64,000 nt of DNA. Origin: Dehalococcoidia bacterium. GTDB lineage: Bacteria; Chloroflexota; Dehalococcoidia; Tepidiformales; Tepidiformaceae. The stretch is from assembly GCA_020432045.1 (NCBI GenBank), contig JAGQHB010000024.1, positions 1-64,000 on the forward strand, given 5' to 3'. Position numbers and translations under genes: made by a program. The first letter of the stretch is position 1. Every line of letters begins with the position of its first letter. Shown piece by piece: positions 15,025 through 57,852 of this stretch. The notes under the pieces were generated by a model, which was not told the DNA's origin, ran no database searches, and saw nothing but the letters and a program-made list of their open reading frames with translations.

Positions 15025-15982
15025 TGACCCCTCCGATCCGGACAGCAGCGCGCAGTGTTGCGCTCCGTGCCCTCGGGTTCCGGGCCACTTCGTCTTCACT
15101 CGGGCGAATCCCACGCTTCGTCAGCAGCCGCAGCCGGGCAACGTGGCCACACACACATACCGGCACGGCAGGCGGGCACACGCATCCCGTCGACTCCCGA
15201 CGGAGGAATTGCTTTACTAATCGGTCTTCAAGGGAATGGAACGAAATGACTACGAGGCGTCCGCCGTCAGAGTCTGTTCCAGGGTCGAGCAGGTCGCAGG
15301 CGAGCGGAAGTCCCTCGTCAAGGCTGTCGAGTTCGCCATTGACTCGGATCCGGAGTGCAAGGAAGACCCTGGTGGCGGGGTGAATTCGGGTTTGTCCACC
15401 TGCCCTCCCCACGGCCTGCTCGACCGATCTGGCTAGATCCCACGTCGTCTGGAACGGCCTGTCCCGGACGATCGCGGCGGCGATCCGGCGTGAGCGCGTC
15501 TCCTCCCCATACCCGTAGATGAGATTCGCTAACGCCGTTTCATCCCACGTATTCACAATCTCAGCGGCAGTTTCTCCGCCGAACTGCGGGCCCATTCGCA
15601 TATCGAGCGGCCCTTCGAGCGCGAAACTGAATCCGCGATCGGCCCGCCCGAGCTGCAGGGACGACACCCCGAGGTCAAACAGGATGCCATCCACCCGTTC
15701 GAACCCCGCCTCCTGTGCCATCGTGCCGATGTCGCGGAAGTCTCCGCAGGCAAAGCTGATTCGCCTCCCAAACGACCTCAGCCTCACCTGCGCAGACTCC
15801 AGCGCCTCCGCATCCCGGTCCACGCAAAGCAACATCCCCTCAGGCCCCATCGCCTCAGCGATCCGGCTTGAGTGACCCCCAAGCCCCGTTGTCGCATCGA
15901 TGTACCGGCCTCCCTGTTTCACAGCGAGGTGGTGCAGCGCTTCTTCCAGCAAGACAGGGACGTGTGCGATAGGACTGGTCAT
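15011..15982 (-). CDS. rsmH: 16S rRNA (cytosine1402-N4)-methyltransferase RsmH
   Basis: SAM-dependent methyltransferase that modifies C1402 in the ribosomal P site. It is 323 aa. N-terminal HVPVLLEEALHHL leads to the SAM motif IDATTGLGGHSSRIAE; ILFDLGVSSLQL, FSFALEGPLDMRMGP and VVISFHSLEDRLVKQFLR are all family signatures. The start at 15982 lies 11 bases after mraZ. The mraZ-rsmH pairing at the head of dcw clusters is very widely conserved. Confidence 0.98.
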   Translation of the reverse strand: MTSPIAHVPVLLEEALHHLAVKQGGRYIDATTGLGGHSSRIAEAMGPEGMLLCVDRDAEALESAQVRLRSFGRRISFACGDFRDIGTMAQEAGFERVDGILFDLGVSSLQLGRADRGFSFALEGPLDMRMGPQFGGETAAEIVNTWDETALANLIYGYGEETRSRRIAAAIVRDRPFQTTWDLARSVEQAVGRAGGQTRIHPATRVFLALRIRVNGELDSLDEGLPLACDLLDPGTDSDGGRLVVISFHSLEDRLVKQFLRRESTGCVCPPAVPVCVCGHVARLRLLTKRGIRPSEDEVARNPRARSATLRAAVRIGGVNGGD

Positions 15983-37009: not shown

Positions 37010-38749
37010 TCACTCCCCGCCGACGAGCTCCGCCGCAAACGAATCGAGCCCACGTTCGGCAACCACCGTGTAGGTCTGCAGGTCCACCACGACGACCTTC
37101 CGGCAGGCCTCGCCGAGGCACTTCCCTCCGTTCGTCATCGCCCTCTCCAGCGCTGGCCCGTCCGCGAGGAACAGCGCGTACCGTCCGTCGCGAGTGATCA
37201 CCGGCATCTCGAACCTCCCTCCGGGATCGATCACGGTGCTTACCGTCATCGACGTGAGGTCTACAATCGTGATTCCGGAACCATGGAGCGTCAGCCAGCC
37301 ATCGCTCCTCACCGGAGGCCCCTGCCACGTGCCCACCCCGGCGAGCGTTTTCCCATCCTCCGAAACGGCAATAGCTCCGACCTCCGGCACTTCCAGCACC
37401 GTCTCCAGCGTTTCCGCATCGACGATGCGCAAACCGAGCGGGAGGCCCCGCCAGCAGGTGTCAAGGCCAGCGCACTGCTCGGTGGTGGTTCCGCTCAGCG
37501 CCAGGTATCGGCCCCCACCGACAACCTCAATGCCCGGCCGGCTCGATGGTCCGCCCTTTGCTTCGGCAGTGTCCCAGAGCCGGTCCGCAAGCCAGCCTCG
37601 GAGTCTCTTCCACCCGCTCTTTCGCGCTCGTAGCGACTTCTCTCCCACGACTTCTAGCCTTGACGTGTCGATCACAGTGATGGTGGGTGATTCGGCGTGC
37701 ACGACATAAACACGACGCCCATCCGGCGAGATCGCGATCGCCGGCGCATAGAGCCCGTAGAAACCGGCCCCCTGGTCCTCCTCTAACAGCTGTCCCGCGA
37801 GCAGGCCATCCACCATCACGCGCCCAAGTTCCGCGCCCGTGGCAATGTCGATCACGACCAGGAACCCCGGCTTGTCCGTCACATAGCCGTCAGCTGTTTC
37901 GAATCCCGGCACGTAGAGGCGCGTGCCGTCCGGCGACAACACCAGCCTGCTCCCCACGGTGAAGTTGAGCGTCCCTAACACATGGCTCTTGGTGCCATCC
38001 GCCGGGACGAGAGTCACGTCGGTACGGGACCCGTTGGCTCTCAGGGCGATAATCGCCCGCCCATCCGGCATCCATGCATCCACGGTGTCATTTCCGGCGG
38101 GCGTGTCCAATTGCCTCGCCGACCACGCCGCCAGGTCAATCACGTAGGGACCGGCCGCCAGCATCGTTCCGTCCGGCGATAGCAGGCCGCCGGTAAACCC
38201 GGATACCTCGATAGCGTCGAACCCCGCGAGATCCTCTCCCGTCGCCGGGTCGATCGGCCGGACCACCGCTCCGTTTGCATCCGCCTCCCACGCCGCCACG
38301 AATACACTTCCCGGCGCGCCCCCTGCGGGGGAAAGGTAGTCTCTGACCATCGGCGAATTCGCCGGCGTTGGAAGGAACGGTTCCAGGAAACTGACGTCTC
38401 CGCTCCCGGAATCCGCCTCTGAATCTCTCGCAAGCACTCCCAGGGCAAGCATGGCTCCGATGCTGATCCCTACCGCAACCGCCGTGCTCAGCCCCGCGTA
38501 CAACGCCAGCGCGATCACAGGCCGTTCCTGCCGCTGCGCGGGTGCTGACCAGGTCGCCAGCTCGCCGCGATCTCGTGTGTCAGTCTTCGCCAACAAGTTC
38601 GAGACGTGATAGCGCACCGTGTTCACGCTGATGCCAAGCCGCACGGCGATCTCCGCGTTCGCCCGGCCCTGCCGCACTTCGGCCAGTACGCGCTCCTCAG
38701 CCGGCGTCAGCCCCTCGGCCCGCGGACGTCCTCGTCGCTTCCAGGTCAT
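37010..38749 (-). CDS. Membrane-anchored LuxR-type HTH protein with extracytoplasmic beta-propeller
   Basis: 579 aa. Residues about 13-66 are a GerE/LuxR DNA-binding domain (LTPAEERVLAEVRQGRANAEI...VNTVRYHVSNLLAKTDTRDR). A single membrane helix follows at about 77-107. Residues 120-579 repeat a beta-propeller pattern with SPDGTMLAAG, SPDGTRLYVPG, SPDGRRVYVVH and SEDGKTLAGVG blades. The layout resembles one-component membrane regulators of the ToxR/CadC kind, but with a LuxR head and a propeller sensor. TAAAGT lies 7 bases before the ATG. Two cysteine pairs late in the propeller may form disulfides. The ligand is unknown. Confidence 0.85.
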   Translation of the reverse strand: MTWKRRGRPRAEGLTPAEERVLAEVRQGRANAEIAVRLGISVNTVRYHVSNLLAKTDTRDRGELATWSAPAQRQERPVIALALYAGLSTAVAVGISIGAMLALGVLARDSEADSGSGDVSFLEPFLPTPANSPMVRDYLSPAGGAPGSVFVAAWEADANGAVVRPIDPATGEDLAGFDAIEVSGFTGGLLSPDGTMLAAGPYVIDLAAWSARQLDTPAGNDTVDAWMPDGRAIIALRANGSRTDVTLVPADGTKSHVLGTLNFTVGSRLVLSPDGTRLYVPGFETADGYVTDKPGFLVVIDIATGAELGRVMVDGLLAGQLLEEDQGAGFYGLYAPAIAISPDGRRVYVVHAESPTITVIDTSRLEVVGEKSLRARKSGWKRLRGWLADRLWDTAEAKGGPSSRPGIEVVGGGRYLALSGTTTEQCAGLDTCWRGLPLGLRIVDAETLETVLEVPEVGAIAVSEDGKTLAGVGTWQGPPVRSDGWLTLHGSGITIVDLTSMTVSTVIDPGGRFEMPVITRDGRYALFLADGPALERAMTNGGKCLGEACRKVVVVDLQTYTVVAERGLDSFAAELVGGE

Positions 38750-38756
38750 GGGTCAC

Positions 38757-38762
38757 ACTTTA
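38757..38762 (-). promoter_or_regulatory. -10 box of a leaderless promoter for the LuxR/propeller gene
   Basis: TAAAGT on the minus strand, 7 bases before the ATG at 38749. Confidence 0.55.
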
Positions 38763-38842
38763 TCCACCGTCGTCGGCAATTACCCCGTCCACCGCCGCAA
38801 AGTCCGCTCAGCAGCCACGGCCCACGGCTTAACGCTAACCGC

Positions 38843-39268
38843 CTACGCCCCTAATGGCCGCCACTGCACCAGCGTCACCTCGGGCGTCACATCCATAAAC
38901 GCCACCTCCACCGGCAGCCCGATCCGCACGCTGTCCGGGCTGCAGTCGATGATGTTCGCCGTCATGTGCACGCCCTCGTCCAACGCCACGATCGCGATCA
39001 CATACGGCTCGTCGCCGTTCCACTGGGGTGACGTCGCGCGCCTCGCTACCGTGTAGGAATACACCGTCCCGCGTCCGCAGGCATCCACCCACTCCAACGT
39101 GTCGTCCGCCCCGAACGGAGACACCGCCCGCGGGTAGAACACGAACCGTCCTGTCTTCCGCGACCGCTGCAGCACCAGCCGGTGCTCTTTCGCCGCGTCC
39201 CAGTACGGCTTCGATATCGTGTTGGGCTCTGGCAGCGGTTTCCCGTAGGTTTGCGGTTCGTCGCTCAC
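38843..39268 (-). CDS. DUF35 OB-fold protein, partner of the thiolase-like protein
   Basis: 141 aa. N-terminal helix (ISKPYWDAAKEHRLVLQRSRKTGRFVFYPRAVSPFG) is followed by an OB fold (RGTVYSYTVARR...PYVIAIVALDEGVHMTANI). In canonical DUF35 proteins the helix leads into a CxxC zinc ribbon; here those positions are not cysteine, so zinc is unlikely. The start overlaps the stop of the thiolase-like gene by four bases, matching the usual thiolase/DUF35 partnership. Confidence 0.87.
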   Translation of the reverse strand: MSDEPQTYGKPLPEPNTISKPYWDAAKEHRLVLQRSRKTGRFVFYPRAVSPFGADDTLEWVDACGRGTVYSYTVARRATSPQWNGDEPYVIAIVALDEGVHMTANIIDCSPDSVRIGLPVEVAFMDVTPEVTLVQWRPLGA

Positions 39269-40449
39269 TTTCCGCTCCTCGCGAGCAACAGCGAAACCTG
39301 CTCGCTCATGATCCCGCCGTTGCCGTTCACAAAGGCGTACTCACACTTTCGTATCTGCCGCACACCGCTTCGGCCCATGATTTGCCGCGCCGCTTCCGTC
39401 ACGTGTGACATGCCGCCCGCGATCCCTGCCTGTCCGAACGAAAGCTGGCCGCCGTGCGGGTTCAGAGGCCAGTCGCCGTCGAATTGCAGGCTGTGCTCAT
39501 CAACGAACGTCCCGCCCTGCCCCTTCTTCGCGAATCCGGCATCCTCGATCGTCAGCAATACAGTGATCGTGTAGCAGTCGTACAGGCTCGCGAGGTCGAT
39601 GTCCCGCCGCCGCACGCCCGCCATCTTGAACGCATCGTCCGCCGCTGCAGTGATGGCCGAGTGTGTCAGGCTCGGCGCAAACGCGATGCTCCGGTGCGTC
39701 GTGTGTTCTCCCGCGCCAAGCAGCCACGCCACAGGCTTCTTCAGTCGCTTCGCCTTTCGTGCACTCGTCACCACGATCGCTGCCGCGCCCGCCACTGGCA
39801 TCACGATTTCCAGCAGGTGCAGCGGGTCGACCACCATCGGTGAATTCAGGACGTCGTCAACCGTGATCGGCTGCCCGAAGAAGATCGCGTCCGGGTTGTG
39901 ACACGCGTTGTAGCGCTGTGCCACCGCGATCTTCGCCAGCTGCTCCGGCCGCACACCGTATTCGTGCATATAGCGCTGGGCGATCATCGCATAGCCGTAG
40001 TTCGCGCCAATCGCCCCGTAAGGCTCTTCGAACTCCGCTGCCGGCGTCCGGTCTATCCGCCGCCCTGAGAAGCTGCCGCCGCCCGGCCGCGAACTTCGCT
40101 GCTCCCGTCGCGCCGCTGTCGTGCACACAACGGTCTCGCAGAGCCCGGCCGCGATAGCCATCGCCGCCCGCGTCACCATCCCTGCCCCGGTCGCCCCGCC
40201 GAGGTCCACCACCTCGGCGAATTTCGCGTCGATCCCCAGGTACTCCACCAGCGTTGCCGGTGCCATGAAGGGCGCTTCCGCGAAGTTCGCCGTGATCACG
40301 CCATCGACCTCACCCGGTTCCAGGCCCGCGTCGGCGATCGCATCCATCGCCGCCCGCGCCAGCATCCCAAGCGTCGTTTCACCCACCGTGAAACGGCTCG
40401 GCTTGAACTCCGCCACCCCGGCGATCGCGACACTGCCGCGCAGCGACAT
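39265..40449 (-). CDS. SCP-x-type thiolase-like protein without the catalytic cysteine
   Basis: 394 aa thiolase fold (SCP-x/lipid-transfer-protein branch). The segment where the nucleophilic Cys is expected reads VDLGGATGAGMVTRAAM, and the C-terminal GHPxGA position reads GQAGIAGG. Both key residues are therefore replaced. With a DUF35 partner this recalls Ltp2-ChsH2-type aldolases rather than true thiolases; that is inference from family knowledge. The ATG at 40449 has GAGG upstream. Confidence 0.85.
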   Translation of the reverse strand: MSLRGSVAIAGVAEFKPSRFTVGETTLGMLARAAMDAIADAGLEPGEVDGVITANFAEAPFMAPATLVEYLGIDAKFAEVVDLGGATGAGMVTRAAMAIAAGLCETVVCTTAARREQRSSRPGGGSFSGRRIDRTPAAEFEEPYGAIGANYGYAMIAQRYMHEYGVRPEQLAKIAVAQRYNACHNPDAIFFGQPITVDDVLNSPMVVDPLHLLEIVMPVAGAAAIVVTSARKAKRLKKPVAWLLGAGEHTTHRSIAFAPSLTHSAITAAADDAFKMAGVRRRDIDLASLYDCYTITVLLTIEDAGFAKKGQGGTFVDEHSLQFDGDWPLNPHGGQLSFGQAGIAGGMSHVTEAARQIMGRSGVRQIRKCEYAFVNGNGGIMSEQVSLLLARSGK

Positions 40450-40562
40450 CCTCTTACCTCGATCCTGGAATCGGATCCCGCATGGTACGTGGCACAGGCT
40501 TCCGGGGCGACCAGCCCCCCGGCCTTCCACCTTCCGGCCCTTGTCGCGCGCCCCTCCGTTGA

Positions 40563-40575: not shown

Positions 40576-41544
40576 GTGTCGGAATCCAAACAGCACCTTC
40601 GGGCCTGGCAGAATGCAGGGCTCCTCGACGAGGAGACCGTTAGCCGCATCGTCGCCTTCGAATCCGCCAGCCGCCCGGCGCCGTCGGCCCTCCCCGAAGA
40701 ACGCCCCGGCGTGATCGAAGCGATCCTCTACCTTGGGTTCGTCGTCGCCGGCGCCGGTATCTTCTTCCTCGTCGGCAACAACTGGGAGCAGCTCACCTCC
40801 TGGTCCAGGCTCATGCTCGTCACCACCGCTGCGGTCCTTACACTCGGTGCGGGCGCGGGGATGCACCTGGCGGCCCATCCCGGTGTGCGTCGCGGTGGCC
40901 AGGCGGCCTGGCTTCTCGCCGTGGCCCTCTCGGCGGCGTCCCTGGCCGTCGCCTTCAACGAGTACGGTGGCCACCAGCTCGGTGACGAACGCTGGCAGAT
41001 CGTCGTCGTCGCCACGGCAACGTTCGCACTGGCGATGACGCTCTGGGCGTTCGCTCCGTCATCCCTCCAGGTCCTCGCGATCGCCGGCGCCACCGTCTTC
41101 TTCGCTGAAGCCCTCGGCGCTTGGCCCGATGAGTACTCGCCTCGGCTCGCCGGCCTCACCATCGCCACGACGGGTGCAGCGCTGCTCGTGCTCACGGAAC
41201 TGGGCGTCTTCCGCCCGGTACGCACTGCCCGTGTGGCCGCCGCGGCCCTCTGCGGCATAGGCGCCTTCCACGCCGGTGTCGATAGCTCGCTGCCTTGGGA
41301 GTTCATCGCATTCGTGGCGGGTGGCGCGCTAATCGGGCTCGGCATCTGGCGTGCGTCTTTCACCTACGTCGCTGTCGCTGTCGCTACGCTCCTTGTGGCG
41401 CTCATCACGTTCATGTTCGAACACTTTGGCGGCGAACTCGGTGCGCCCATCGCCCTCATCCTCTCCGGGGGCCTCCTCATCGGATCAGTCCTCGTCCTCG
41501 TCCAGGTCCGCACAATGATTCACCGCCACCGGGTTGCCGTATGA
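40576..41544 (+). CDS. DUF2157-like multi-spanning membrane protein
   Basis: 322 aa from the GTG at 40576. A cytoplasmic N-terminal helix pair (HLRAWQNAGLLDEETVSRIVAFE) precedes about nine to ten membrane segments starting at residue 48. The first membrane block (EAILYLGFVVAGAGIFFLVGNNWEQL) is the DUF2157 signature. Function unknown; the family is often near lipid or envelope genes. It overlaps the TolB-like gene by four bases (ATGA). Confidence 0.82.
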   Translation: MSESKQHLRAWQNAGLLDEETVSRIVAFESASRPAPSALPEERPGVIEAILYLGFVVAGAGIFFLVGNNWEQLTSWSRLMLVTTAAVLTLGAGAGMHLAAHPGVRRGGQAAWLLAVALSAASLAVAFNEYGGHQLGDERWQIVVVATATFALAMTLWAFAPSSLQVLAIAGATVFFAEALGAWPDEYSPRLAGLTIATTGAALLVLTELGVFRPVRTARVAAAALCGIGAFHAGVDSSLPWEFIAFVAGGALIGLGIWRASFTYVAVAVATLLVALITFMFEHFGGELGAPIALILSGGLLIGSVLVLVQVRTMIHRHRVAV

Positions 41545-42239
41545 AGTCGCGTCTCGCTATCGCGGCCACCTTCGCAGGCGTTGCCGTGCTGGTCGCCGTA
41601 GCCCTCGTTGCCTTCCAATTCGGCCGCATCGACCCATCACCTCCATCCCTCCGAAATAAGCCCGCTCCGAGCATCCCGGGCGAGATCCTCTACACCAGTG
41701 GCCAGTCTTGCCTGACCCGTGCCGATGCCTCAGGAGCTAATCGCCACGAGATCTGCTATCCCGCCCTGCTCTACATCGGTCCCTTCACGTGGGTGGATGC
41801 CAACACGATCCGGACCTGGTCGCAGGGCGTTGTTGCCGATATCGACCTCAGGACCGGCGCCCGCACCCCCGTGTCCAAGTCCGGGTCAGGTATCGAGAAA
41901 TTTCCGCTACGCCCTCCAGTCTCATCCGCCGGTGACACTGTGCTCGTCGATCGGGGCGACCTCTATCTGGTGAGCGCCGGGGGGCAGCAGAAGATCGCCA
42001 GCTTCGATATAGGCGATACCTGGCTGGAGCCCATCGTTTGGTCGCCTGACGGCAAGTGGATCCTGGTCCGCTGGCAGCCCCCACGGGGTCGCGAGTCGGA
42101 ACTCTGGATCGTCTCCCGGGATGGCTCGGTAAAGGGCACGCTCGCAACAAACTTCGAAGGAAACTGGGCCGCCTGGCGTATCGATGGCGTCGGCACGACG
42201 CCGACTGTCGACGAAATGTTCGGTGCCGCCGCTCGCTGA
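41541..42239 (+). CDS. Membrane-anchored TolB-like beta-propeller protein
   Basis: 232 aa with an N-terminal membrane anchor (residues 5-25) and a short extracytoplasmic domain of beta strands. The segment WSPDGKWILVRW and GRESELWIVSRDGS are TolB/PD40-type. Too short for a full propeller, about three to four blades. It starts inside the DUF2157 stop (ATGA), so the two proteins are likely to act together in the envelope. Confidence 0.75.
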   Translation: MKSRLAIAATFAGVAVLVAVALVAFQFGRIDPSPPSLRNKPAPSIPGEILYTSGQSCLTRADASGANRHEICYPALLYIGPFTWVDANTIRTWSQGVVADIDLRTGARTPVSKSGSGIEKFPLRPPVSSAGDTVLVDRGDLYLVSAGGQQKIASFDIGDTWLEPIVWSPDGKWILVRWQPPRGRESELWIVSRDGSVKGTLATNFEGNWAAWRIDGVGTTPTVDEMFGAAAR

Positions 42240-45952: not shown

Positions 45953-48088
45953 TCAACTCGCCAACCTCGAATCGCGATCGCTCGTGAACCGGAAGCCGAG
46001 TGGCTCGTCGCTCTCCCGCGCAACTAGAAACGCTGCCCATGGATCGTCGTCCACGGGCCGTCGCTGCGCGGGCTCCTCACCGGCCTCGTTTGCGACCACG
46101 ACGTCCAAGTCAGTCTGCACCACGAGCACCTCGTCCGCGGGCCTGTCTGCCTGGTTGGCGGGCAGTCCCCACGGATAGCTTCCAGCATCGCCCGTTTCGG
46201 CCTCTGCGTCAGCACCCGCGCCCACAGGGCTTTCCTTTGACTTTGCGGCGACGCTCTCTTCCGGATCGGCGAACAGACCCCCCTCGTTGGCCGTGACATC
46301 CTCCGGCTCCGCCATGCTCGGGGCCACGATTGGATGCTCTCCGTCGAAGAGAAACTCGGCCACTCCCCCGTCGGGCACAGCCTCGACAGCTGCTGCGAAC
46401 GGTTCAACGTCCGTCACACCATGCTCAGTGACTTCCCCGGCACGCGCTTCGGATGGTTCGGCGACCAATTCGCCGCCGGCTTCCATGGGCTCCGTCGTCT
46501 CCGCTTCTGCTGCCTCGTCGAACGCTTCGACAACCGTCGCTGCCGGGTCAGCTGTCTCCCGGGGCCCGGATTCCAAACGCTCGCCGGTCGCTTCGACATC
46601 GGCCCCGCCAACGTCCGTCTGCTGCGGTGCACCCGCCGCCTCCGTGTCGCGTACCATCCGCGGCGGGCGCTGCGGCACCCGTTCATCCGATGGCGGCCGT
46701 TCGAACCATTCGTCGTCCCATACGTCCCTGTCCGTGAAACGTCGCGGAAGTTCGTACTTCAGCGATCCGTCCTCGTCGCTCGGTGGCGCCCCCCAGGCCC
46801 CTGGTCCCGGTCCGCTCGCACCCCGTGCCGTGGCGTCGAGCGCACGCGTTCCCGGCGCCCCATCGCCGCCGATCGCGTCGTCGTTCAACTGTTGTTCTGC
46901 TGGTTCCCAGCCCGTCAGCGCAGCCACATCGGTTCCGGGTGGCTCCGGGTGAATCTGCCGCTGCCGCTCGCCCTTCGCGGCCTTCATCTCCATGATCGCC
47001 GCTGGGTCTGCTGACCATTCCATCGCTTCACGTTCAGCGCGCCGTTCGGCCCCCCGCCCGAAGAGCTTCCCGAGGCGCATCGGCTTTCGTTCGGGTTCAG
47101 CCCCGGTGTCCGCGCGCGTGGGAGCGCTGGCTGAAGCGAAGGTATCCCACCCGCTCGCGTCCAGCGCAGACTGCTCTACGATCGCAAGCGGCACAGCCTC
47201 GGCCGGCTCCTCTTGCTGCTCGCGTGCCGTCCCTGCCCGTCGTTCTTCGTTCGCCACCGCCGGTATGGCAGGCTCCTCCGGCTGCTGCCTGCCTGGAACA
47301 TCCGCTTCCTCCCAGTCGAACGGCTGCAGGAGTTCGGACGGCAACTCCGTCAGATCTCGCGCCTTCCGCTCCTCGTCCTTCGCTCCGGTCGTCCAGTCAC
47401 GCATCGCCTCGATGATCGACGTCTCCGGAGGTCCGCCGAACATTTCGTCCCATTTCGTCCGCTTTGGCGTCAGGTTGTCCGGTTCTCCCGGGCCGTCTCC
47501 GTGCTCTTCGTCCATTGGCGCTTCACGGAGCTCGAACTCGCGCGGCCGTAGCGGAGCCGGCGCCCATTCCCTGTCGCCCTCGATCGCTCCGTCCGGCCCG
47601 TGCTGCTTCGCGATCGCCCCGGCTCTGCGTGGCCCGGTCCGCCGTTCAAAGTCCTCAGGTGCGCCCCATTCGGGCTCTGGTTCCTCTTCCTGCCACGTCG
47701 TCCGGTTCCGCCGGTCTGGCAACTCCGCCTTCCAGCTTCCCGGCTCCTCGTTCTCGAACGATTCAGGGTCCATCCACGTCTCGCTGGCCTGCTGTGAAAC
47801 GGGTGCGTCGTCCATCTCTTCTCCCCATGCCGGGCCATCGGCGTGTTGTGCCAGCCCGAGAAGTGCATCACGACCGTGAAATGGGTCGCGTCGCGCCTCC
47901 ATCGCCCGCAGCGATGTCTCCCGGTTCACATTCGCGCGGATGTTGTCCCGCAGTACCCGGTTCTTTGCTTCCTGGCGCTCCCACGCACCAACGGGCAGGT
48001 CGAAATACCAGCCTTCCTCGTGCCATGGGTCATCGCCGTCGGTTTCCTCAGGTACCGGCCCCTGGGCCAGGTCGTCTTCCGGATCCAT
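45953..48088 (-). CDS. Large acidic, Trp-rich, predicted disordered protein
   Basis: 711 aa from 48088, where AGGTGGGAG is well placed. No known domain, signal peptide or membrane segment. Composition is dominated by Glu, Asp, Ala, Pro and Gly. About 20 tryptophans sit in short acidic contexts such as DDPWHEEGWYFD, TKWDEMFGG, FDWEEADVPG, GWDTFAS, VWDDEWFERPP and DDPWAAFL. These look like repeated short linear motifs. The N-terminal RVLRDNIRANVNRETSLRAMEARRDPF is the only clearly helical basic stretch. It lies directly upstream of lepB. I do not recognise a family. Antisense frames here are open over long spans but lack sense-like composition. Confidence 0.75.
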   Translation of the reverse strand: MDPEDDLAQGPVPEETDGDDPWHEEGWYFDLPVGAWERQEAKNRVLRDNIRANVNRETSLRAMEARRDPFHGRDALLGLAQHADGPAWGEEMDDAPVSQQASETWMDPESFENEEPGSWKAELPDRRNRTTWQEEEPEPEWGAPEDFERRTGPRRAGAIAKQHGPDGAIEGDREWAPAPLRPREFELREAPMDEEHGDGPGEPDNLTPKRTKWDEMFGGPPETSIIEAMRDWTTGAKDEERKARDLTELPSELLQPFDWEEADVPGRQQPEEPAIPAVANEERRAGTAREQQEEPAEAVPLAIVEQSALDASGWDTFASASAPTRADTGAEPERKPMRLGKLFGRGAERRAEREAMEWSADPAAIMEMKAAKGERQRQIHPEPPGTDVAALTGWEPAEQQLNDDAIGGDGAPGTRALDATARGASGPGPGAWGAPPSDEDGSLKYELPRRFTDRDVWDDEWFERPPSDERVPQRPPRMVRDTEAAGAPQQTDVGGADVEATGERLESGPRETADPAATVVEAFDEAAEAETTEPMEAGGELVAEPSEARAGEVTEHGVTDVEPFAAAVEAVPDGGVAEFLFDGEHPIVAPSMAEPEDVTANEGGLFADPEESVAAKSKESPVGAGADAEAETGDAGSYPWGLPANQADRPADEVLVVQTDLDVVVANEAGEEPAQRRPVDDDPWAAFLVARESDEPLGFRFTSDRDSRLAS

Positions 48089-48120
48089 TGGCACTCCCAC
48101 CTGTCACCGATCCGCGTCAG

Positions 48121-48150
48121 TTGTCCCGTTGGTGGGCCTTGACCTACCTT
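48121..48150 (+). promoter_or_regulatory. Promoter of the sigma/anti-sigma/SIMPL operon
   Basis: TTGTCC (48121-48126), 18-base spacer, TACCTT (48145-48150), ending 8 bases before the ATG at 48159. Leaderless arrangement. Confidence 0.6.
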
Positions 48151-48158
48151 CGCCCACG

Positions 48159-48764
48159 ATGAGCGAAGTCGGCGATCTCCCCGACGCAGAACTGGTCTCA
48201 CTGGCAAAGAACGGCAGCCTTGATGCCTTCAACAGCCTTGTTGACCGTCACCAGGCCCATGTCTATGGCCTCTGTCGCCGCATGCTCGGCCAACCCGAGT
48301 CTGCCGAAGACGCCACACAGGAGACATTTCTTGCCGCATTCCGTGGTCTCAACGGATTCAAAGAAGGTAACTTCCAGGGCTGGCTCCTTCGGATCGCTGC
48401 CAACCAGTGCCGCGACGAATACCGCCGCCGCGGCCGTCGTATAGCTGCCTCCACCCTCACGCCCGGCGATACCAACGGCGACGCAATCGACCTCCCGGAT
48501 GGTGGCGAGACGGCCGAGGGCACCATGCTCCGTCACGAACTCGGGACAGCCCTCGAACAGCTCCTCCTTGAACTACCCTTTGAACAGCGACAGGCAATCG
48601 TCCTCGTCGATGTCTACGACCTCAATTACGACGAGGCTGCAAGTCTCCTCGAAACCTCGCTAGGGACGCTGAAATCCCGCATCCACCGCGGCCGCGAACG
48701 CCTTCGCCGCCTCGTCCTGGCACACCCGGAACTCTTTGGCGAGGTCCATCGTCTTGGAAAGTAA
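48159..48764 (+). CDS. ECF-type RNA polymerase sigma factor
   Basis: 201 aa. Region 2 is FNSLVDRHQAHVYGLCRRMLGQPESAEDATQETFLAAFRGL with GWLLRIAANQCRDEYRRR after it; region 4 is LPFEQRQAIVLVDVYDLNYDEAASLLETSLGTLKSRIHRGRERL. The linker of about 30 residues is acidic. The next gene encodes a zinc anti-sigma factor 7 bases downstream. This is the classic envelope-stress module arrangement. Confidence 0.93.
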   Translation: MSEVGDLPDAELVSLAKNGSLDAFNSLVDRHQAHVYGLCRRMLGQPESAEDATQETFLAAFRGLNGFKEGNFQGWLLRIAANQCRDEYRRRGRRIAASTLTPGDTNGDAIDLPDGGETAEGTMLRHELGTALEQLLLELPFEQRQAIVLVDVYDLNYDEAASLLETSLGTLKSRIHRGRERLRRLVLAHPELFGEVHRLGK

Positions 48765-48771
48765 CCGGATC

Positions 48772-49563
48772 ATGAGCTTCTTCAACCTTCGCCCTCACTC
48801 CCGCCACTCGCGGCGGCTCAGCGCATTCGTTGATGGCAATCTTGCCCCACGAAATTACGCGTCGCTTGAACGGCACTTCGCGAACTGTGAACGTTGCCGC
48901 CTGCGCTCAACGGAACTGCGCGGCCTCCGCGCTGCCTTACATGCCCTCCCCGCCCATGAGGCGCCGCGTTCATTCAGACTCACGCCCGCCATGGCTGCTC
49001 CCATGCCGGAGCGAACCCCTCAGCCCCTGTCAAAGCGATCCCGCGGGTCCTGGGCCCAGAACGGCGCGCGGGCCGTCGGAACTCTCGCGGCGGCGGCTCT
49101 TGCCGTCGTTCTTGTCATTGATCTTGGCCCGGGATCCGGTGCCAGCTCTTCGTCCAATACCGCTGCTGGAGTTGCTGCCGTCGCGCCCGAAGCAGCGGAT
49201 GCCGCGGCCGCCGGGAGTTCCCGTTCCTCCCTTGCACCGGAAGCGACGCCCGCCGCGAAGGCCACCGAAGTCGTCCCGACCTTTGATACTGGCGAAGTCA
49301 CCGCCCAGGCGGCTGGCGGTGAACCCACGCCTGCACCACCGGATTCTGCGCCACCAGCAACGGGCGCCCAACCGCTCACCCCGGAACCTGAGGTCGAAGC
49401 CCCTTACGGGTCGCTCGCCACGCAGGCGCTCAGCCCTGCCCGGGACACTGACGGTGACAGCAAGCCACTTCGCGTCGCCGAGGTGGTGTTGGGCGTGCTC
49501 GCCGTGGCCGCTCTTGGCGCCTCACTCGTCATCCCTCTGTTCAAACGAAAGGCTCAACGATGA
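48772..49563 (+). CDS. Zinc-binding anti-sigma factor
   Basis: 263 aa. The ZAS motif H35-x3-C39-x2-C42 (ERHFANCERC) lies in the cytoplasmic head. A membrane helix is at about 99-118; then comes an Ala/Pro/Thr-rich low-complexity extracytoplasmic linker of about 130 residues and a second helix near the C-terminus (LRVAEVVLGVLAVAALGASLVIP) followed by KRK. The two-helix layout puts both ends inside, unlike most single-pass anti-sigmas. It overlaps the SIMPL gene by four bases. Confidence 0.86.
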   Translation: MSFFNLRPHSRHSRRLSAFVDGNLAPRNYASLERHFANCERCRLRSTELRGLRAALHALPAHEAPRSFRLTPAMAAPMPERTPQPLSKRSRGSWAQNGARAVGTLAAAALAVVLVIDLGPGSGASSSSNTAAGVAAVAPEAADAAAAGSSRSSLAPEATPAAKATEVVPTFDTGEVTAQAAGGEPTPAPPDSAPPATGAQPLTPEPEVEAPYGSLATQALSPARDTDGDSKPLRVAEVVLGVLAVAALGASLVIPLFKRKAQR

Positions 49564-56200: not shown

Positions 56201-56335
56201 GTGTAAGCCGTTCCTTTGGGGTCTGTCTCCAGTGTTCGATACCCGGCGGCAATCGAGCGTAAACCGCCAAACGGGCCGGTAAAGGGCGTCACCAACCAGT
56301 ACAGGCTCGCTGTATCATGGCCTCTGGCTCTTCGA

Positions 56336-56998
56336 ATGACCTGGGAACACAATCCAGACCTTACCGGCATACGTAACGTAACTACAGCGGTCGTGCGTGG
56401 GGCCCCCGATGACGCCCCCCGCGACATGGCCGCATGGTCGGATGAGCGTCTCATGGAAGCTGTCGTCGCCCGTCAGGAAGCGGCTTTCGCCGTTATCTTC
56501 GACCGCTATACCGAGGTCGTCTACTCAACCGCATACCGCGTGCTGGGCGATTCACAGCTTGCCGAAGACACAACGCAGGACATCTTTGTCCGCCTTTGGA
56601 AGAATCCCGCCGCCTTTGTGGCCGATCGCGGCCGGTTCGTCTCCTGGCTGATGAGTGTCTCACGCAATCGTGCCGTCGACGAGCTCCGTTCTCGCGGCCG
56701 TCGCCGCCGCCGCGAAGGTATCCCGGGTGCCCTGCCCGAAGATAACTTCCTCGAGTCCCTCCCGGCTGAGACTGAGGACCCGCTCTCAAGCGCCCAGATG
56801 AACGAGCGACAGTCGCTCGTCCGCGCCGCCCTCGCCAATCTCCCCCGTGAGCAGCGCCTCGCGCTCGAGCTCTCCTATTTTAGCGGCCTGACCCAGCAAC
56901 AAATTGCCGACATGCTTCACGAGCCCCTCGGCACCGTGAAGACGCGTGTCCGCCTCGGCATGATGAAACTCCGTCGCGCACTCGATGGGCAGGTGTAG
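56336..56998 (+). CDS. ECF-type RNA polymerase sigma factor (SigK-like)
   Basis: 220 aa. Region 2: FAVIFDRYTEVVYSTAYRVLGDSQLAEDTTQDIFVRLWKNP with FVSWLMSVSRNRAVDELRSR. Region 4: LPREQRLALELSYFSGLTQQQIADMLHEPLGTVKTRVRLGMMKL. It pairs with an RskA-type anti-sigma factor that starts two bases after its stop. The start at 56336 is uncertain; a downstream GTG is possible. TATCAT about 25 bases upstream may be its -10. Confidence 0.92.
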   Translation: MTWEHNPDLTGIRNVTTAVVRGAPDDAPRDMAAWSDERLMEAVVARQEAAFAVIFDRYTEVVYSTAYRVLGDSQLAEDTTQDIFVRLWKNPAAFVADRGRFVSWLMSVSRNRAVDELRSRGRRRRREGIPGALPEDNFLESLPAETEDPLSSAQMNERQSLVRAALANLPREQRLALELSYFSGLTQQQIADMLHEPLGTVKTRVRLGMMKLRRALDGQV

Positions 56999-57000
56999 CT

Positions 57001-57852
57001 ATGCGCCAGCACCTGACACAGGAACAGGCCGACGAATACGCGGTCGGAGCGCTCGACCCCGAAGAGGCCGTACGCATCGCACTCCACGCTGAGTCCTGCC
57101 ACGCCTGCGCCCGGCTCGTCGCCGAAAGTGAACGCGTCGCCGCCGTCCTCCTTTTCGCAGTTGACCGTGTCGCTCCGCCTCCTCGCCTTCGCGGACGCGT
57201 ACTTCGGGCGGCTGGCCTGTCGGCGCCGGGCCCTCTCGTCTGGACTGCCCGTCTCATCGGCGCTGGTGCCGGGGTCGCAGCCATTGTGGTGGCCATCGCG
57301 GCCCTCACCGGCCTCGTCTCCGTGCGCAGCCAGGTCAAAGATGTCGAACAGCAGAACGAACTCCTGCAGGCTCAAATCGACGATGCTCTCTCCCAGAAAG
57401 TGGAGATCGCCGCCCTCACTCAGAAGCTCGACGACCAGGCGAAAGAGGCAGCGGACATCCGCTCAACGTCGCGCCTTGACCGCGACCTGCTACTTGCTCT
57501 GCTCTCCCCCGATAGCAACGTCGCCGAAGTCTTCTCTGTCGATGAGAACAGCTTCGCGATCGGCCGCTTTATCTGGGATCCGGAACAGCGCCGTGCCTGG
57601 TTCGTGGCCTCTCGCCTCCCGAAACTCTCTGATGGCCAGGCCTACCAGCTCTGGGTCAACGCCGCCGGCCACTACATCAGTCTCGGCTCGTTCAACGCCG
57701 ACGACTCGGGATTTGCCCGCTTCCAGGCACTCATTCCCCAGGGCGTGGATGGCTACGAAAACGCGGTGGTCACCGTGGAAGCCGCGTCTGGCGTTTCTGA
57801 ACGGTCCGGCCCGGCGGTCTTCGTCGCCGACCTCGCGAACAGCCGCCGTTAG
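57001..57852 (+). CDS. RskA-type anti-sigma-K factor
   Basis: 283 aa. The zinc motif H29-x3-C33-x2-C36 sits in the cytoplasmic head (ALHAESCHACARLV). A membrane helix is at about 82-105, followed by a coiled coil (about 107-150) and the extracytoplasmic RskA domain (about 180-283: RRAWFVASRLPKLSDGQAYQLWV, AVVTVEAASGVSERSGP). It would hold the upstream sigma factor at the membrane. Its stop overlaps the convergent apbE stop by four bases (TTAG). Confidence 0.92.
   Translation: MRQHLTQEQADEYAVGALDPEEAVRIALHAESCHACARLVAESERVAAVLLFAVDRVAPPPRLRGRVLRAAGLSAPGPLVWTARLIGAGAGVAAIVVAIAALTGLVSVRSQVKDVEQQNELLQAQIDDALSQKVEIAALTQKLDDQAKEAADIRSTSRLDRDLLLALLSPDSNVAEVFSVDENSFAIGRFIWDPEQRRAWFVASRLPKLSDGQAYQLWVNAAGHYISLGSFNADDSGFARFQALIPQGVDGYENAVVTVEAASGVSERSGPAVFVADLANSRR

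Follow-up and report, generated by a model that had tools for sequence, protein, structure and literature searches.

Architecture of the encoded protein

The window (the whole 64,000-nucleotide stretch of Dehalococcoidia DNA analysed here) carries on its minus strand a reading frame that opens with an ATG at 38749, closes with a stop at 37010 and encodes a protein of 579 amino acids (37010–38749). A preliminary description of this DNA had proposed a single protein combining a LuxR-type head, one membrane helix and a beta-propeller, and the ORF, Pfam, hydropathy and AlphaFold all confirm it. The first of these elements is a GerE (LuxR/NarL-type) helix-turn-helix domain (residues 14–67, minus strand 38549–38710), which reaches 44.5 bits with Pfam PF00196 (cut-off 23.5) and which AlphaFold and Foldseek also support. 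It is followed by the single stretch of the protein that exceeds 1.6 on the Kyte-Doolittle scale, a 19-residue window from residue 89 that reaches 2.17 and forms the core of the one predicted transmembrane helix (residues 89–107, minus strand 38429–38485). The remaining part, predicted to be extracytoplasmic (residues 112–579, minus strand 37013–38416), consists of a flexible linker and then a beta-propeller (aligned span approximately 132–558), with a Pfam PD40 match of 30.5 bits against a cut-off of 20.9. Sequence searches of the PDB paired the head with NarL/LiaR-type output domains and the remainder with the YVTN surface-layer propeller 1l0q, while the several SPDG-type blades of the preliminary description correspond to three exact SPDG motifs and further xxDG turns. 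Pfam and NCBIfam scans found no autoinducer-binding or receiver domain; in Pfam there was no Trans_reg_C match, the head being GerE, and of the sigma-70/ECF signatures region 4 gave a weak match below cut-off and region 2 was absent.

Codon-position GC is similar throughout the gene, with GC3 of 0.73–0.79 across head, helix and propeller, as in the neighbouring genes, and we therefore read it as one coding unit and not as two genes joined by a frameshift. Such a frameshift or fusion artefact, an objection that the preliminary description had itself raised, is ruled out by this uniformity together with the recurrence of the layout on dozens of unrelated contigs. Among the neighbours, a thiolase and OB-fold (DUF35-like) pair lies 93 bp upstream of the regulator on the same strand (38843–40530, minus), and about 3 kb away (approximately 41540–42239, plus) the translations, read by eye, show another TolB/PD40-like protein that is predicted to be exported and to have a membrane anchor at its N-terminus. 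The same inspection by eye pointed to two pairs of genes (47940–49563 and 56216–57852) in which a sigma-factor-like gene precedes a membrane-anchored anti-sigma-like gene.

Head and ectodomain were modelled separately, since a full-length alignment placed the propeller onto the head. The head model contains helices at residues 16–26, 31–38, 42–56 and 61–65 with pLDDT above 90, as well as a long helix at 81–112; the third of these, residues 42–56 (minus strand 38582–38626, with the Tyr47 codon at 38609–38611), is assigned as the recognition helix from AlphaFold and the operator covariation described below. Foldseek superimposed the head on the NarL–DNA complex 1je8 with an rmsd of 0.7 over 54 columns, and matched it also to LiaR–DNA, with 4wul among the matches. 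The structure prediction of the propeller, a check suggested earlier, gave an all-beta model (mean pLDDT 69, pTM 0.75) whose best matches are beta-propellers (Z 21–26, rmsd 2.8–4.4 Å over 285–355 residues); many of these have eight blades, as do cd1 nitrite reductase and Tako8. With a repeat score above threshold and a propeller fold, the protein groups with the PD40/WD40-like beta-propellers.

The closest homologue of the propeller, from genome G010, is a stand-alone lipoprotein (LLATAGGAC) that has no GerE domain, is 37% identical and shares two cysteine pairs with the window propeller; more distant homologues begin with signal peptides or lipoboxes. Because these head-less relatives are exported proteins, the propeller almost certainly lies outside the membrane, and the topology put forward previously (cytoplasmic head, one helix, outer propeller) holds as one inferred from hydropathy and homologues. 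A whole-protein search of GTDB contigs yielded no close orthologue, and in a family-wide search with a propeller profile the G010 lipoprotein was the only match, with no full-length orthologue seen in the family. That the closest homologue is headless suggests that domain exchange attached the propeller to the head cassette. The same two observations could be taken to mean that the protein is an ordinary surface propeller carrying a non-functional helix-turn-helix gained by gene fusion, a reading that we find barely credible, since the head has kept its conserved GerE residues and a matching operator and the cassette recurs across genomes.

A head-helix cassette with interchangeable ectodomains

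The window protein was used to search its own genome and 60 relatives, many of the matches covering the first ~110 residues only. The roughly 100 relatives examined are alike at the N-terminus, where head, one helix and linker succeed each other, and vary in the ectodomain behind it, which is interchangeable and can be of the RCC1, PD40, LRR, SH3, PQQ or another type; the hydrophobic helix, whose absence from homologues had been named as a reason to doubt the proposal, is thus present across them. We assembled 64 head-plus-helix proteins, of which one (L019) was left out and to which the window protein was added, giving an alignment of 64. GerE was matched in 62 of these, and their ectodomains comprise RCC1 repeats (10), PD40 (6), SH3_3 (6), CarboxypepD_reg (2) and one each of LRR, fn3 and PQQ/BamB, the others being without a named domain.

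The combination of GerE, membrane helix and propeller, which the preliminary description had proposed to seek in other genomes, recurs: GerE-TM-PD40 proteins were seen again in the same family (L062) and in another family of the class (L225). Searched for across the class, the cassette turned up in Tepidiformaceae and in other families of Dehalococcoidia; some genomes carry 20 or more candidate genes (the maximum exceeding 20), and in G145 such genes form clusters. The evidence throughout is computational and comes for the most part from metagenome-assembled genomes. When the search was widened to a sample of 201 genomes of the phylum at E ≤ 1e-24, the window's own genome alone matched, so that at this threshold the cassette looks lineage-restricted. 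In the matches from other phyla GerE is mainly C-terminal, or the membrane helix is absent. These results support a class defined, as far as sequence can tell, by the head-helix cassette and its operator (see below) and not by the propeller. The earlier suggestion of a new class of membrane-bound regulator is therefore retained as regards a distinct class, and dropped as regards the propeller as its defining part, the ectodomains being variable.

Many members possess long Pro/Thr-rich linkers after the helix, which could serve as a cleavage region if the head were freed from the membrane by regulated proteolysis and acted as a soluble factor. We consider this unlikely: the linkers lie outside the membrane, we identified neither a cleavage site nor a partner protease, and CadC operates without cleavage (PMC5936718). 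We infer instead that the head stays anchored while it binds DNA.

Three helix-less proteins (L158, L160 and, in the window's own genome, L015 at 780–1436 of contig C19) join the same N-terminal GerE head to a glyoxalase/VOC-like domain and form a soluble branch of the family; an operator-like site is found in front of L015 as well. One close match to the head (L136) comes from a record that bears the name of another phylum (Gemmatimonadetes bacterium jk18x9bins.46); a Dehalococcoidia bin stems from the same series of samples, and the match probably reflects mis-binning.

Predicted operator and promoter, and further candidate target genes

Upstream of the genes encoding these proteins, k-mers and expectation maximization recovered a 16-bp motif with the consensus tcGGgTAGGGAAATTc or ...GGTAATTC, scoring 1096 in 88 non-redundant upstream regions compared with ~640 for shuffles; simple palindromic dyads in the upstream regions showed no excess over shuffles. 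Across the 88 regions the motif starts most often 42–43 nt ahead of the start codon, and it is missing at the expected distance in 22. The motif lies in range in 66 genes, and 51 of these have a TANNNT element downstream of it (shuffled rate 7%), invariably 14 or 15 nt away; the commonest distance from this element to the beginning of the start codon is 6 nt. The spacing and the position of the start codon together predict a leaderless promoter with the motif in its −35 region. Scanning 484 kb with the position weight matrix returned 71 matches located no more than 130 nt in front of GerE-TM starts; the other 77 are near the chance expectation of ~70, and several of the best of these precede further GerE-head genes or exported-protein genes.

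The window gene follows this geometry. Its predicted operator, GTGGACGGGGTAATTG, identified by motif discovery, starts 43 nt upstream of the start codon (minus strand 38777–38792), and 14 nt past the 16-mer lies a predicted −10 element of the TANNNT type, TAAAGT, 7 nt before the ATG (minus strand 38757–38762). A scan for sigma-70 promoters and terminators near the gene found none, and the region contains no TTGACA-type −35. This operator is the sole exact match to GGACGGGGTAAWTSS in the genome and, with up to two mismatches allowed, the only match in the window; two one-mismatch copies elsewhere in the same genome (G000) were rejected, as they do not have the promoter geometry. The window-type heads of G000, G005 and G010 are each preceded by GGACGGGGTAA[TA]T[GC] at 41–42 nt before the ATG. 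A further window-type head gene in G005 (L306, contig C22, approximately 15108–15305) also has the exact operator in front, and its reading frame shifts right after the recognition helix (67 amino acids), indicating a pseudogene or an assembly error.

For the window protein we found no convincing target in its own genome besides its own gene and, as there is no other exact copy of the operator in that genome, autoregulation is the best prediction. The direction of this control would be activation, given the position of the operator, in place of a −35, and the failure to find a TTGACA-type promoter. The head might alternatively be an autorepressor whose binding over the −35 region blocks RNA polymerase, a possibility that fits the position of the operator and the presence in the window genome of an exact self-site only. 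We place it well short of even odds, because a region devoid of a TTGACA-type −35 would make a weak promoter unless activated, and because in relatives the same element marks target genes.

In three genomes with many heads, G025, G028 and G031, the pattern SGGVBVRKGWAAWTC is matched 15, 20 and 14 times, compared with 0–2 for the reversed pattern; it is matched 3 times in G011 (where one GerE-TM gene was found) and 4 times in G000. The non-regulator matches with promoter geometry mostly precede exported proteins, among them RCC1 and LysM lipoproteins, LRR and vWA proteins and other secreted repeat proteins. By an automatic criterion, an export-type hydrophobic N-terminus occurs in 20 of the 27 non-regulator matches and in 6 of 46 window genes, the matches including orthologues in three genomes of one genus that are not independent. 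The exact 15-mer CGGACGGGGTAATTC was found only in G005 and in seven genomes of genus g12, and is missing from the 30 family genomes other than these. It is present in all six genomes whose matching head is at least 84% identical, a correspondence confounded by genus, and G028 has such sites although the matching head was not found there. In two genomes the operator precedes a tiny lipoprotein gene (L268, G028:C21; L286, G031:C5) located directly upstream of a citramalate/isopropylmalate synthase-like gene.

Head-operator correspondence and a proposed membrane-tethered switch

Within one genome (G028), paralogues of different head class have different left halves of the motif. Operator positions 7–8 are predicted by a single residue, x, within the recognition-helix sequence [VAIT][KR]xH: GA accompanies Thr or Ser at x in 13 of 14 cases and an aromatic residue in 0 of 52 (Fisher p 7e-13), counts in which related genes are not independent. 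This rule was noticed before it was tested, and it was written down before the examination of new loci, where, with both test columns masked when the site was located, GA was found in 5/5 Thr/Ser and 0/20 aromatic cases (Fisher p 1.9e-5). The left half of the operator correlates with the recognition helix when the rest of the head, the spacer and the flank are controlled (partial Mantel r 0.245, p 0.001). With the recognition helix controlled instead, the rest of the head gives a partial r of 0.002. The motif's right half does not track this helix. On the best head tree the residue and base traits change about 7–8 times with 65 of 66 concordant, the tree being poorly resolved and offering only two independent pairs on well-supported branches. 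In the window protein x is Tyr47, which by hand alignment we take to be the counterpart of the DNA-contacting NarL residue V189. The covariation of residue and bases speaks for binding of each head to the promoter of its own gene, and we regard the sequence evidence for such binding as strong. The core of the motif, GGGGTA, is moreover the half-site of the NarL co-crystal DNA TACCCCTAAAGGGGTA (PMC4549865).

The shared element could instead be the promoter of an alternative sigma factor (for example of the ECF type) serving envelope genes, with the GerE heads as mere clients. The tight 14–15 nt spacing to the −10, the predominance of exported proteins among the clients, as expected of an envelope sigma regulon, and the independence of the right half from the recognition helix would all fit such a promoter. 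It would leave unaccounted for a left half that varies inside one genome with the head class of the downstream gene and that tracks a single recognition-helix residue, new loci included; the occurrence of the 15-mer in all six matching-head genomes points the same way, subject to the genus confounding and the G028 exception, and we judge the sigma-factor promoter a long shot.

Our preferred reading, to which we give a probability of nearly four in five, is that the window gene encodes a single-pass, membrane-integrated one-component regulator with its propeller outside and a head that, as in most of its Dehalococcoidia family, binds the operator of its own leaderless promoter. The parts of it that sequence supports are the architecture, the family, the operator and the head-operator match. 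A NarL/LuxR-type GerE head in the cytoplasm would be tethered by one helix to the outer beta-propeller and would regulate its own gene from the operator at 38777–38792 in the −35 region; a ligand or an envelope state read by the propeller, for which the preliminary description had suggested a wall or extracellular ligand, may alter dimerisation of the head on DNA, the effect probably being activation rather than repression. In related genomes the same operator type also fronts genes for exported lipoproteins and surface proteins. For the class as a whole we lean, with some reserve, towards a broader picture in which Dehalococcoidia possess modular, orthogonal transmembrane transcription sensors: a mobile cassette of promoter operator, head and helix would turn any exported domain joined to it into a sensor that acts on its own gene and frequently also on genes encoding exported proteins of a similar kind, and the identity of one recognition-helix residue would specify two bases of the operator, a readable code for the wiring.

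The preliminary description had likened the protein to ToxR and CadC built from different parts, and the comparison stands. By prediction and by its exported homologues it has, like them, an N-terminal head, one membrane helix and a C-terminal extracytoplasmic domain, and it works like ToxR/CadC yet is outside that winged-helix family: whereas ToxR, CadC and TcpP carry a head of the Trans_reg_C type, the proteins described here carry a GerE/NarL-type head, very diverse ectodomains, a large lineage-specific expansion and an operator that forms part of the leaderless promoter of the regulator itself. Membrane-integrated systems have been described as ~3% of one-component systems and as the winged-helix ToxR family (PMC5936718). 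In the searchable literature, which lacks most subscription journals, we found no description of a GerE-TM class, and this family of switches is apparently undescribed. It would represent a second membrane-integrated design, built on a NarL-type head, with more than 20 members per genome, self-matching operators and an apparent residue-to-base code. If this is true, the signal wiring of a largely uncultured bacterial class becomes readable from sequence, and ready-made orthogonal promoter-sensor pairs are at hand.

Other known systems share individual features. The LuxR proteins DadR, HcdR and CadR of Eggerthella lenta, which have 10–12 membrane helices and a C-terminal helix-turn-helix (PMC9734109), are likewise membrane-bound, carry a LuxR-type helix-turn-helix, are expanded in one lineage and control individual functions; the window protein, with its N-terminal helix-turn-helix, one helix and big outside domain, falls outside that group. 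NarL, LiaR and VraR have the same helix-turn-helix fold (Foldseek rmsd ~0.5–1.1 for isolated domains) and a TACCCC/GGGGTA-type site, but the window protein lacks both a receiver domain and an input by phosphorylation, and its head is fused directly to a membrane helix. The ectodomain, in turn, has its fold in common with YVTN/WD40-like PD40 propellers (PDB 1l0q) and those of the cd1 type and, unlike the surface-layer YVTN/PD40 and cd1-type propellers, is attached to a transcription factor.
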